From Pseudomonadales bacterium (GTDB lineage Bacteria; Pseudomonadota; Gammaproteobacteria; Pseudomonadales; Pseudohongiellaceae): DNA of 64,000 nucleotides. Under the pieces are notes generated by a model. It was not told where the DNA came from, did not search any database, and saw only the letters and a program-made list of their open reading frames with translations. The translations under genes were made by a program, and so were the position numbers. The stretch spans positions 186,001 to 250,000 of the forward strand of contig JALRBQ010000013.1 of assembly GCA_023257655.1 (NCBI GenBank). Direction: 5' to 3'. Positions 5,641-10,090 of this stretch are shown here, in pieces. The stretch's first letter is position 1; each line of letters starts with the position of its first letter.

Positions 5641-6486
5641 GTATTGATCGATCACTCCGGTCTGGAGAACGTGCTGATCAACCTTGCTGTGAATTCCCGT
5701 GACGCCATGCCCAAGGGTGGCAAATTCATCATTTCCAACGACGAGCGAACTTTAAACACGCAAGTCATAGACAGCACCCCGGAAGACATGAAGCCGGGAG
5801 ATTACGTGCATATCACCGTCACCGATACTGGTGAGGGCATGGATGCCAATACGCTCAGCCGGGCGTTTGAACCCTTCTTCACCACCAAGGAGCGTGGCAA
5901 GGGTACCGGCCTCGGTTTAGCGATGATCTATGGTTTCGCCAAACAGTCGGGGGGCAACGTGAAGATGATGAGCTCGCCCGGCGCCGGCACCACAATGGAA
6001 TTATGGTTGCCAGCCGCCCCGGGATTGGTCGTGGATCGACCAGCACCGGCCGAGACGCCGGAGTCCGGGTTACGGTTCACCTCCGCTGATGAAGTGTTGG
6101 TGGTCGATGATGAGGCCGAACTGCTTGAGGTTGCCGTCTATTTTCTGCAAGACATGGGCTGTACTGTGCTCTCGGCACTGAACGCAGAGCAGGCCTTGCA
6201 GCTGATTGCCGTTAATGACTCCATTAAGGTGCTGTTGACCGACATCGTCATGCCGGGAGGTATGAATGGCGTAGAACTGGCTGCCAAGGCGCGTGCCCTG
6301 AACCCAAACATCAAGGTGTTGTACACGTCCGGGTTCCCGGAAGGCGTGCTGGCTGACAAGTCCGGACTGCGGCTGGATGCTCCCTTGTTGCAGAAGCCCT
6401 ATACGATCGCCGCACTCGGCACGGCGATCAGTCTTGCACTGCAATCTTCCGAGGAATATCAGGCGTCTCCCGGCGTAAAGTCCTAG
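5641..6486 (+). pseudogene. 3' fragment of a hybrid histidine kinase (HATPase + receiver)
   Basis: About 282 codons encode the end of a hybrid sensor kinase. The HATPase domain starts at the N-box (LIDHSGLENVLINLAVNSRD), followed by DTGEGM, the F-box FEPFFTTKERG and the G2 box GKGTGLGLA. A full receiver domain follows, with VVDDEAEL, phospho-acceptor Asp in LLTDIVMPGG and the conserved Lys in LQKPYT. All sensor (PAS/TM) and HisKA parts, including the phospho-His, are absent, and no credible start codon or RBS precedes it. The upstream DNA is the out-of-frame MATE remnant. It is therefore probably a dead fragment, although the receiver half could fold. Its TAG overlaps the stop of the convergent aldolase gene (CTAG, 6483-6486). 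Confidence 0.75.
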
Positions 6487-7424
6487 CGACCCGCGGCCGA
6501 TTTGCCTCGTGTCAATGCCTCAGTGGCATAGGACGAGAGACCGCCGTCCGCCCCCACCGTGACAAAGCGGAATCCCTGTTCGACACGCTGCGCGACACTG
6601 CCAGCCGAAGTTGTGATGGCGCACGGCACATCGAAGTCGAGACAAGCTGCTAACACCGACTGTATGGCGGCTTCAACCTGGGGCGCTGAAGGACTGGCAT
6701 AGCCCATCGCAGTGCTGAGATCCGACGGGCCGATGAAGATTACGCCTACACCTGGCACCGAAATGATGTCGCGAATATGCTCGACACCCTCGGGCGATTC
6801 AATCTGGATTATTGCCAGCAGTTCGCCTTCGCGATCCAGTGGCCAGACATCGGCTTTGGCATGGTAGTCTGGAATGCCCCAGTACCAGCTCGCATTGGCC
6901 GGGTTACGACCACGTAGACCGGCCGGTTCGAAATCATCAGCACCATTGAGTTGTGGATAACGGGTCGCGCGTACCGCGAGTTCTGCTTGCTCGCGGTTAT
7001 TGATGGACGGAAACATGACACCGAACACCCCCACATCCAGTACCTGTTTGACCTGGGATACGAAGTCTTCATCGCCGCCGGCGGGTATCCTGACAAAGGG
7101 TACAACATCGGGCTGCAGCGACCCCTTTTCCAGAATCGCCGCTTTGTCAGTCATGCCGAGCAGAAATTCCCGGAGCTGTTCGACATCGAACGGTGCGTGC
7201 TCCATGTCGATGATGATGAAGTCGAGTCCGGATCGCGCCATGCTGCGCGCGTTGTTTAATGAATAGTCAAAACTCAATACACCGAAGGCTACCTGGTCAT
7301 TGTCCAGCAATTCAATGGCGCGATTGAGACGGGGACCCGCCGCGGTCTGCGCCTGTGAAAAGGCGCTTGCCAGCAGCCAAACCGTAGCCAGCAGGCCCAT
7401 TGCTTTTGTTCTTGTTGTGGTCAT
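6483..7424 (-). CDS. Exported HpcH/HpaI-family aldolase
   Basis: This 313-residue protein is a class II HpcH/HpaI aldolase (citrate lyase beta-like TIM barrel) with an N-terminal signal peptide (hydrophobic 9-24, ending SQAQ). The family's key residues are in place: catalytic His76 (DMEHAPF), substrate-carboxylate Arg112 (PFVRIP) and divalent-metal ligands Glu209 (IIQIESPEG) and Asp235 (IGPSDLS). Such enzymes cleave or form 2-keto-3-deoxy acid aldols, normally in the cytoplasm, so export is unusual. It is divergent from the redoxin gene at 7602. Substrate is unknown. Confidence 0.82.
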   Translation of the reverse strand: MTTTRTKAMGLLATVWLLASAFSQAQTAAGPRLNRAIELLDNDQVAFGVLSFDYSLNNARSMARSGLDFIIIDMEHAPFDVEQLREFLLGMTDKAAILEKGSLQPDVVPFVRIPAGGDEDFVSQVKQVLDVGVFGVMFPSINNREQAELAVRATRYPQLNGADDFEPAGLRGRNPANASWYWGIPDYHAKADVWPLDREGELLAIIQIESPEGVEHIRDIISVPGVGVIFIGPSDLSTAMGYASPSAPQVEAAIQSVLAACLDFDVPCAITTSAGSVAQRVEQGFRFVTVGADGGLSSYATEALTRGKSAAGR

Positions 7425-7601
7425 CTGGCTCTCCTCAAAACCTGGTGGTTCTCCAGCCTCATTCTAGCCGCTCTCCCCATACAGTCCACCGCTTTGAGCG
7501 AGACAGGCGAAATGATGTTGAGTGCAGTCCGGTTGAAGTGCAGGCCATTCTCCTCTACTCTGGCAAGCTCCATCTTCAGATTTCTCGACAGGAGTACTCC
7601 C

Positions 7602-8753
7602 ATGCAGCGACTACCGGGTCTGGGTCTGCTGCTTGGCCTCGTGACACTCACGGGTCAGGCAACGGCGCAGAACGCGACTGTGCTCTACAACGACCGCGTC
7701 GTAACTATCGAACAAACTTTACCGGACGCCAGTGATCTGTGGGTCAAACCTGCCGATCTGACCCGCATCAATGACTTCGTCCTGAAGCCCGAAGGTGCCT
7801 GTCTGGATGACCTCTGTGTGCCCGTATTGCAGGATCGCGACAGCGACATGTATGTGACGCGACGGGGACAAGGCTGGTTTAACGTCACCGGACTGGCTGA
7901 CAAACTCCAGCAGGCTCACGTCACCGACTACGATGACAGCATCTGGAGCTTTGGGGCCATGCCACTGGAGCGTCGCTCTTTCTTGCGTGGTGGCGAAGCC
8001 CCGGACTTTGCGCTGCCCGATCGCGACGGCAATCTCGTCCGACTCTCGGATTTCCGTGGCAAGAAAGTACTCCTGCTTACCTGGGCTTCCTGGTGAGGCT
8101 GTAGACTGGACGTGCCCGTGTGGCAGTCAATCTACGAAGAGTTGAAATCCGATAACTTTGAAATCATCTCTCTCGCGCAAGACGCGGGTGGAGAAGCGGC
8201 CGCTGGGCCGATCTTCGATGCGGCACAGGTAAGCTACACCGCCATCATCGACGTGAACCATCACATCAGTGCCTTGTATAACCTGGTCAATGTACCCTCC
8301 GGTGTGTGGATCGACGAACAGGGCAAGATCCAACGTATCAATGAGGGCACCTATGCCGCCGTGCATAGCCTGGGAGCCACCAGTTTCGGTACCGATGAGT
8401 ACGTCCCTATCGTACGTGACTGGGTAGCGAAGGGTGCCGAGAGTCGTTATGTCTGGGATCTGGAGAAAGTACGCCAGAGCATTATCCAGCGCACGCCGGA
8501 AGCTGAGCGAGCACAGCCGGCCTTCCGCATTGGCACGTATTACTTCACCAATGGCAATGATGCCAAGGCGGAGATCTACTGGACAATGGCCCAGGAGCTG
8601 GATCCGACCGACTGGAATTATCTGCGTCAGGATCTGCAGTACGAGGAAGGTGGTTCGGCCGGTCCGCAGTGGCGCGAACGGCGGAATCAGATCGAGAGTA
8701 CGGGAGGCAGTTATTACGCCCCCCTCGAGATCGAGCCCGCGCCGCCCAACTGA
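7602..8753 (+). CDS. Putative selenoprotein: exported redoxin with in-frame TGA (Sec165)
   Basis: The reading frame from ATG 7602 (RBS CAGGAG 8 nt upstream) runs 383 codons to 8753, interrupted only by TGA at 8094-8096. The flanking translation is LLLTWASW-(TGA)-GCRLDVPVW. This is the redox-active loop of an AhpC/TSA/thioredoxin-like domain, where relatives have Cys-Gly-Cys, so the TGA sits exactly at the first catalytic Cys. Reading it as selenocysteine gives a U-G-C motif (Sec165, Cys167). Residues 1-23 form a signal peptide, 24-125 an N-terminal region with Cys67/Cys72, about 130-265 the redoxin fold, and 300-383 a TPR-like tail. Coding quality is equal on both sides of the TGA and the hairpin follows at once. 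The alternative is a nonsense mutation of a Cys codon. No sel genes lie in the window. Confidence 0.72.
8094..8135 (+). promoter_or_regulatory. UGA codon plus candidate bacterial SECIS hairpin
   Basis: Five bases after the TGA (8094-8096) an imperfect hairpin begins. Arm 8101-8108 (GTAGACTG) pairs with CAGTC at 8124-8128 and TCTAC at 8131-8135. A short inner stem ACG/CGT (8110-8112 with 8117-8119) closes a TGCC loop at 8113-8116. The apical loop lies about 17 nt from the UGA and has a G at its second position. That agrees with the general description of bacterial SECIS elements: a loop some 16-37 nt downstream with a G near the loop start. Competing folds exist (GCC/GGC at 8114-8116 and 8122-8124), so the exact structure is uncertain. 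Confidence 0.5.
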
Positions 8754-8775: not shown

Positions 8776-8811
8776 AAAAAAGCCGATCCTGTGAAGGGTC
8801 GGCTTTTTTTT
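8776..8811. terminator. Bidirectional intrinsic terminator
   Basis: A 10-bp stem (AGCCGATCCT / AGGGTCGGCT, one G-U pair) with a GTGA loop is flanked by an A-run on the left and an 8-T run on the right. It stops transcription from the selenoprotein candidate (plus) and the NHL gene (minus), whose stops lie 22 and 27 nt away. Confidence 0.92.
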
Positions 8812-8837
8812 CAACTGCGCTTTGACTAAAACGGGGT

Positions 8838-9965
8838 TCAGGGTGCGACCCAGGGTGGATTGATCAACAACTCGGGATTGATCCCGGGCTTGGGGACAAA
8901 CTTCTGTGAACGACCGTATTGATTGTCGCCGCCGTACAGATTGCCATCGGTGTCGGCAGTGAAGGTATGTACCTCGATATACCCGTCGGGCAAATCCGGT
9001 GGCACAAGCCAGGTGTATTTGTAATTGCCTTCGAAATCCAGATTCACGAATCGTAATGGACCAAGATCGGTAATCCAGACGTCGTCGTCATTCACGATGA
9101 TGTCCAGAGGCAGGGTGAAGCCGTCCCAGACATCGACGAAATCCATCTTCGCCGGATCGTCAGTCGTGCGGAAAACATTGACCCGTCCACCCGAGCGGTC
9201 GAGCGCGAAGATCAGACCATTAGGCCCCACGCCCAGTGCATGAATGCCATTGAACTGGCCCGGGCCCTCACCTGCGCTGCCAAATTCGGCGATGTAATTC
9301 AGGTCCTTGTCCAGAATCATGATGCGATTGTTATCGAGACCATCGGCAATCAGCACGCGACCGTCCGGCAGGAAGGCCACGTCCTGGGGACGACCGAAAT
9401 GGTTCGGATCCGTGCCCGCGACGTTCTTCTCTCCCATAATCTTCAGCAGCTCTTTGCCGTCATTGGAGAAGATGTAAATTTGCTGGAAGGTTTCGTTGAT
9501 GACCCAAACCCGGTGTTCCGGGTCATAGGGACTGACTCGTACGCGATGGGGTCCAGGTCCGTCGGAACCGGCACACAGGAAATCCCACTGATTCCACAAT
9601 TCCTTGACGTTGCCGTCGCCATCGAGTGTGTACATGCAGTTTTGCCAGGTGCGCAAATCCGTGTCGCGCAAAACGTTGATGCCAAGTGTGCCGGCATGCT
9701 GTTCAAATTGTTCCGGCAGCGGGAATGGCAGCAAGGTCTCGCCGCGCTGCAAGACGAAGATTCGGTCGGGGGACTCGGCATACAGACCGGAATTGCCACC
9801 GAAGGCAAAACCCTGCTTGGCGAACGGTTTGTGCCAGCCGCGAACGACATCGTAAGGACTTGGCCCTATCGGGCCTCGCGCATTGCCTTCCGGCGCCTGG
9901 GCCAGCACCGAACTTCCACCCATCATCAAACCCAGTAACAGCGCGTATGAATACACTCGGCGCAT
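8838..9965 (-). CDS. Exported NHL-repeat beta-propeller protein
   Basis: The 375-residue product starts at the ATG at 9965, which has a GGGGAG ribosome site 9 nt upstream and opens a clean signal peptide (MRRVYSYALLLGLMMGGSS, cleavage near VLAQ). The mature part shows NHL-type propeller repeats: FGRPQDVAFLPDGRVLIADG, GPGQFNGIHALGVGPNGLIF, and similar blades. These resemble peptidyl-alpha-hydroxyglycine lyase-like six-bladed propellers. Such domains bind ligands or act as lyases, and no specific role can be assigned. It faces the selenoprotein gene across a shared terminator. On the upstream side (10091-10126) lies a large hairpin separating it from glcB. Confidence 0.78.
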   Translation of the reverse strand: MRRVYSYALLLGLMMGGSSVLAQAPEGNARGPIGPSPYDVVRGWHKPFAKQGFAFGGNSGLYAESPDRIFVLQRGETLLPFPLPEQFEQHAGTLGINVLRDTDLRTWQNCMYTLDGDGNVKELWNQWDFLCAGSDGPGPHRVRVSPYDPEHRVWVINETFQQIYIFSNDGKELLKIMGEKNVAGTDPNHFGRPQDVAFLPDGRVLIADGLDNNRIMILDKDLNYIAEFGSAGEGPGQFNGIHALGVGPNGLIFALDRSGGRVNVFRTTDDPAKMDFVDVWDGFTLPLDIIVNDDDVWITDLGPLRFVNLDFEGNYKYTWLVPPDLPDGYIEVHTFTADTDGNLYGGDNQYGRSQKFVPKPGINPELLINPPWVAP

Positions 9966-10090
9966 CTGTGTAACTCCCCGTGTTTTGCAGCATCTGATTG
10001 AAACTGCGTTGTTTTGTTGTCGAGCGATCATGCCATTAGCCACGCGGGCTCGCGCTGTAACGGCGGTAAAAATCACAATTTATCACAGGT

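Follow-up and report, generated by a model that had tools for sequence, protein, structure and literature searches.

Redoxin selenoproteins with a Sec-Gly-Cys (UGC) motif were reported in 2008 by Zhang and Gladyshev (PMC2398784), who described a class of Prx-like (UGC-containing) selenoproteins within pfam00578. The available part of their paper gives 46 Sec sequences from 15 samples of the GOS data, along with 855 Cys homologues, and describes the class as more abundant in non-marine samples. A UGC-containing Prx-like protein, with that study cited as its source, is listed in PMC9312934, and a UGC-containing TlpA disulfide reductase family protein (cd02966) is listed in PMC13188914; from the portions of these papers at hand, we infer that both entries denote the class of Zhang and Gladyshev. 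Other selenoproteins fused with extra Cys are described in the available text of PMC9402790. Among the papers searched, none joins the term "selenoprotein" with "WAxxUGC"; NCBIfam holds a family of that name (NF041054, WAxxUGC_long, ResA-like WAxxUGC motif-containing protein). The protein considered here is therefore not a new kind of selenoprotein, since both the UGC class in pfam00578 and the NCBIfam WAxxUGC family already exist.

The gene in question lies in a 64,000-nucleotide stretch of a Pseudomonadales contig, the whole of which is called the window here (Table 1). Its product resembles the class of Zhang and Gladyshev (PMC2398784) in its pfam00578 domain (57.9 bits), its U165-G166-C167 motif, its occurrence in aquatic samples and its Cys homologues, a likeness judged by domain and motif. 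Export, an N-terminal CX4C domain and gene neighbours find no mention in the available part of that report. The nearest curated family is NF041054, whose match to the window protein (E 1.4e-74) covers residues 46-355 and has the Sec position identical; the score of 251.5 bits is nevertheless below the cut-off of 300. That cut-off was reached by 4 of the 12 proteins scored (the window protein included), namely two Sec forms (L029, 466.8; L026, 478.6) and two Cys forms (L092, 545.7; L079, 317.5). The protein is also like ResA, TlpA and DsbE (CcmG) in its thioredoxin fold, its ResA-type layout and its likely export. It differs from them in having U-G-C (U-x-C) in place of C-x-x-C and in its added N-terminal CX4C domain and C-terminal helices; its NCBIfam ResA score is 72.2, below the cut-off of 170. 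Exported selenoproteins have precedents in FdnG and the periplasmic NiFeSe hydrogenases. What is less usual is the make-up of this subfamily, with a signal-peptide-like N-terminus, a CX4C domain, a Sec-Gly-Cys ResA-like domain and a helical C-terminus.

Table 1. Features of the probable selenoprotein gene and its neighbours (window positions)
Feature	Position	Strand	Basis
HpcH/HpaI aldolase-like protein, divergent neighbour	6483..7424	-	signal-peptide-like N-terminus by eye
Exported ResA/TlpA-like selenoprotein gene (probable)	7602..8753	+	read through TGA 8094-8096; Pfam, NCBIfam, homologues, model
Predicted signal peptide, residues 1-23 (MQRLPGLGLLLGLVTLTGQATAQ)	7602..7670	+	hydrophobic core, A-x-A end
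N-terminal beta-rich domain with Cys67 and Cys72 (CX4C), residues 24-120	7671..7961	+	conservation, model
ResA/TlpA/DsbE-like thioredoxin-fold domain, about residues 124-280	7971..8441	+	Pfam, PDB profile and fold matches
In-frame TGA, predicted selenocysteine 165, within W-A-S-W-U-G-C	8094..8096	+	sequence and homologue alignment
Cys167 codon, second residue of the U-G-C pair	8100..8102	+	invariant in 54/54 homologues
Apical SECIS-like hairpin UGCC-CGUGU-GGCA, positions 20-32 (T of TGA = 1)	8113..8125	+	conserved, codon-constrained
C-terminal helical, TPR-like part, about residues 287-366	8460..8699	+	helices in model
NHL-repeat/6-bladed beta-propeller protein, convergent neighbour	8838..9965	-	Pfam

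Reading frame and protein domains

The sequence-only reading had proposed a single 383-codon frame broken only by a TGA, with both halves coding for one redoxin-family protein, and both proposals are borne out. The frame runs on the + strand from the ATG at 7602 to the stop at 8751-8753, with the TGA at 8094-8096 as its sole interruption, and an AGGAG can be read in the sequence at 7590-7594, 7 bases ahead of the ATG. A single Pfam AhpC-TSA match (PF00578; residues 130-245, 57.9 bits against a cut-off of 26) crosses the TGA, and AlphaFold2 models the read-through protein with confidence both around the TGA and overall (mean pLDDT 90.3, pTM 0.87). The proposed redox pair with Sec in first place is also supported, and its form has been made more precise: the context LLLTWASW-U-GCRLD gives U-x-C (U-G-C), not the commoner U-x-x-C. 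Beyond the stop codon, an inverted repeat and T-run near 8776-8812 were seen by eye only, and the inverted repeat was not listed by a terminator scan.

The N-terminus of the window protein is signal-like, with a maximal 12-residue Kyte-Doolittle mean of 2.03 and low pLDDT over residues 1-20, and a matching layout was seen by eye in 17/17 close relatives. Among the 25 proteins whose hydropathy was measured (the window protein included) were seven from a sister clade (MAYPELRSPFE...), in which the N-terminus is not hydrophobic (at most 0.32). Export of the window protein is suggested by a signal-peptide-like N-terminus that the entire close clade shares.

The four residues Cys67, Cys72, Sec/Cys165 and Cys167 are invariant in all 54 aligned homologues, and a separate alignment of the N-terminal domain has Cys67 and Cys72 in 39/39. 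Modelled alone, this domain gives pLDDT 94.3 and pTM 0.86. A search of the PDB gave it no match at E<=0.001, and its highest VIA-align Z was 4.6, which does not make the fold a new one; E. coli amine oxidase (1qal) matched weakly at its start (Z 2.9), and this match was not used. The thioredoxin-fold domain superimposes well on 3gl3 (Z 15.0, rmsd 2.0 over 137 residues) and on ResA (1st9; Z 14.4, rmsd 2.2 over 136 residues). For the C-terminal part, Pfam TPR_2 matches 29 of the 54 homologues at E<=0.01, and the window protein itself matches no TPR model.

Homologues and selenocysteine machinery

At E<=1e-20, a search of the order (293 genomes) returned 12 matches spread over 9 genomes, the source genome included, and 7 of the 12 hold one TGA, always at the same codon. 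At the level of the class (369 genomes), five genomes had a match, again counting the source, and these supplied two further TGA forms and two generic redoxins. A wider contig scan, from which the best 80 of 83 relatives were kept, used two patterns, one of which has Cys at the Sec codon, so that Cys forms were favoured. With two generic CGPC redoxins (L042 and L043) removed beforehand, the 94 homologous loci, among them the window, divide into 53 with TGA and 41 with Cys at this codon, a split that is not a frequency; the earlier proposal that the TGA replaces a redox Cys agrees with this column. Six of the 94 loci duplicate another's aligned protein, and the three of these that fall among the TGA loci probably reflect the same genome reached twice. 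The TGA is not private to the source strain, a circumstance that the sequence-only reading had named as one that would count against it: the 17 relatives found at 76-86% identity (L044-L059 and L063) all have TGA, and none has TGC or TGT. Sec forms also occur in two named strains that we take to be cultured, HTCC2143 (L087) and Candidatus Litorirhabdus singularis strain IMCC14734 (L074). The L074 genome has tRNA-Sec, and the expected Sec segment of its protein reads WSSWUGC.

Two loci stand apart. A paralogue at L064:4460-4468 has Sec-Ile-Cys (TGA ATA TGC), the sole such case among the 53 TGA forms; it keeps the hairpin (see below) and the signal-like N-terminus, and its contig shares the isolate name NORP66 with L045. 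L082 has an apparent frameshifted stretch and in-frame TAA/TAG past the Sec site, and looks like an assembly error or a decaying copy. Together with L078 and L113, it was left out of the codon test and the tree on account of TAA/TAG within the aligned stretch, and the six repeats were also kept off the tree. In the tree of 85 rows (48 Sec, 37 Cys), the Sec/Cys state requires four changes, whose direction is not fixed under the midpoint root. One clade, with support of 100/99, holds 42 of the Sec rows; the rows nearest to it, from Planctomycetota, Actinomycetota and one unplaced bacterium, are Cys forms whose N-termini are signal-like.

Comparison with the closest relative (L044) gave dN/dS of 0.022 upstream of the TGA and 0.047 downstream, rough values with dS near saturation (2.4 before the TGA, 2.0 after). 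The downstream value supports the earlier claim that coding quality is kept past the TGA and that the gene is not an old pseudogene.

The sequence-only reading had also pointed to the sel genes as a check, and tRNA-Sec, selA, selB and selD were all found in the source genome (G000; 3.11 Mb, 101 contigs, completeness 93.4, contamination 2.5), where they sit on four separate contigs. The tRNA-Sec scores 66.9 bits (cut-off 47), with ARAGORN in agreement (SeC, anticodon tca), and selA (553.8 bits), selB (366.2) and selD (261.3) are each above cut-off. In an ungapped comparison over 92 positions, this tRNA-Sec is identical at 89 and 86 to its counterparts in two genomes of the same genus, and at 46-55 to those of four genomes from other families of the order; it thus looks native, given the agreement within the genus. 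Contamination as the origin of the sel genes was considered and thought unlikely in view of the near-identical same-genus tRNA-Sec, a comparison that covered tRNA-Sec. Two genomes of the genus, G081 and G137, have tRNA-Sec but no homologue of the gene at E<=1e-20, and its distribution within the genus is therefore patchy. The window's contig also holds another selD-like match, below threshold (L017, G000:C15:8911-9618; 50.3 bits, cut-off 125), which is perhaps, as a guess, a PurM-superfamily relative.

Within the order, 20 genomes were tested for tRNA-Sec, which was found in 5/5 with a TGA form (the source included), 0/4 with only Cys forms and 6/11 without a homologue. A second test took 45 of the 80 scan loci, minus L087, for 44 genomes, many of them draft MAGs searched under strict filters, and found tRNA-Sec in 18/23 with a TGA form and 10/21 with a Cys form; assembly gaps may account for the five TGA genomes without it. 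All 13 close-clade genomes searched have tRNA-Sec. Its presence in Cys-form genomes is no contradiction, since other selenoproteins are possible there.

A hairpin downstream of the UGA

A bacterial SECIS element is recognized by the place of its hairpin, a short distance 3' of the UGA, and by a G near the start of the apical loop, and the hairpin in Table 1 agrees in both respects: it begins 16 nt past the UGA, with 20 nt between UGA and loop, and its loop is CGUGU. Positions 20-32 take the form UGYC, a five-base loop N-G-N-N-U, and GGCA in 53/53 TGA genes (41 distinct sequences), as against 9/41 Cys genes. This count alone overstates the case, because the 3' arm is for the most part dictated by the Trp-Gln codons (TGG CAR), and for that reason codon choice is the stronger test. 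Across 47 non-redundant Sec genes, codons 171-173 are GTG in 41/41, CCC in 40/43 and GTG in 44/46, with codon identities of 1.00, 0.86 and 0.91, compared with a mean of 0.33 and a maximum of 0.57 at 54 fourfold sites elsewhere. Usage elsewhere in 51 of the Sec genes is GTG for 31% of Val and CCC for 29% of Pro, and the Gly166 codon adjoining Sec is not fixed (identity 0.48). The Cys set allows no like-for-like codon test, since its residue 171 is Leu (codon identity 0.33) and residues 172-173 are too variable. The hairpin and this synonymous-site constraint give the selenoprotein reading further, independent backing.

Other approaches to the hairpin were less informative. The fold of the single 47-nt sequence is not unusually stable (z -1.0; 32/200 shuffles equal or better), Rfam gives no SECIS match within 8060-8200 up to E 10, and the lower stem has no clean covariation, with clades pairing it through differing bulges. 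Mean folding energy over 50 nt is stronger in the Cys homologues (-19.2 kcal/mol) than in the Sec forms (-10.6 kcal/mol), probably owing to G+C, and the codon test took its place as evidence for the hairpin. The loop in L090 is GGUCU, which we take to equal that of E. coli fdhF. The Cys-form loci that retain the hairpin include L095, L079, L083, L096 and L097, and L095 has an exact CTGCC CGTGT GGCAG past the Cys codon; such loci are either recent Sec-to-Cys converts or a matter of coding-sequence chance.

Alternative readings, probable role and neighbours

To judge from the sequence evidence, the UGA at 8094-8096 is very probably read as Sec in a real selenoprotein, neither error nor pseudogene, and we hold with high confidence the joint reading of a Sec-decoded, 383-residue, likely exported ResA/TlpA-like enzyme with a Sec165-Gly-Cys167 active site. 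A change of TGC or TGT to TGA in the source genome alone, by sequencing error or in a pseudogene, might be suspected from the MAG origin of the data and from the single base that separates a Cys codon from TGA. The identical TGA in 53 loci, L087 and L074 included, and the low dN/dS past the TGA (dS near saturation) make this extremely improbable, and it was rejected on the ground that the TGA is common to many assemblies. The UGA might instead mainly terminate, as a switch or to give a truncated product, or be read by a near-cognate tRNA, and in favour of this tRNA-Sec was missed in 5/23 TGA-form genomes. However, the tRNA-Sec of the source genome and of 13/13 searched close-clade genomes, and the placement of the UGA exactly at the Cys column beside a conserved hairpin with synonymous constraint, render both possibilities very unlikely.

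As to function, a role mainly as a peroxidase, either peroxiredoxin or glutathione-peroxidase-like, is possible though rather unlikely. It would be consistent with the Pfam AhpC-TSA and Redoxin matches, a match to GSHPx below threshold (20.2 bits, cut-off 27), the peroxiredoxin AhpE among the fold matches (1xxu, Z 12.3) and the Prx-like name given to the class in the available part of PMC2398784. The top structural and PDB profile matches, however, are ResA, TlpA and DsbE-type reductases. The active-site motif of peroxiredoxins, PxxxTxxC, is absent from the window protein, in which LLLTWASW precedes U165 and the WASW-U-G-C loop has an invariant second Cys.

The likely role of the protein is that of an extracytoplasmic selenol/thiol-disulfide oxidoreductase. 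SelB and Sec-tRNA would act at the mRNA hairpin just 3' of the UGA to place Sec at 8094-8096, and Sec165-Gly-Cys167 would be the active-site pair of the ResA/TlpA-like thioredoxin domain. By homology with ResA/TlpA and by conservation, Sec165 would attack a disulfide or oxidised thiol on an exported partner, and Cys167 would then resolve the intermediate. Cys67/Cys72 are a candidate re-reductant of this pair, to which they might, speculatively, relay electrons. It is conceivable, though unlikely, that in the exported clade the CX4C domain, as one not described before, feeds electrons to the Sec-Gly-Cys site of the same chain for the benefit of a periplasmic partner, perhaps the neighbouring NHL propeller, with the signal-less sisters keeping the four redox residues.

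The neighbourhood was compared across 38 loci. The upstream aldolase and the downstream propeller each have a homologue close to the gene in 15 of the 17 close-clade loci (in neither case L055 or L057), with the propeller about 3 kb distant in L044 and L059. Among the 21 loci outside the close clade, the aldolase is found in 0/21 and weak NHL matches in L064 only. Signal-like N-termini were seen by eye in all three window products, which seems unusual for an HpcH/HpaI aldolase-family enzyme; for the propeller, the Met opening the signal-like sequence (MRRVYSYALLLG...) would be at 9965, and the listed ORF starts at 10076. A functional link of the selenoprotein with these conserved neighbours is a guess.

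The locus adds a well-supported, probably exported clade to the known UGC-type kind of redoxin selenoprotein, for which the evidence in the available parts of the published sources is computational only. With a score under the NCBIfam threshold, the gene may well be split at the TGA by automatic annotation. The natural TGA and Cys variants, some with a signal peptide and some lacking it, are well suited to studying the advantage of Sec over Cys in a CxC redox site, and the class is open to laboratory testing, since a Sec relative that lacks the signal peptide is present in two named strains (L074 and L087).
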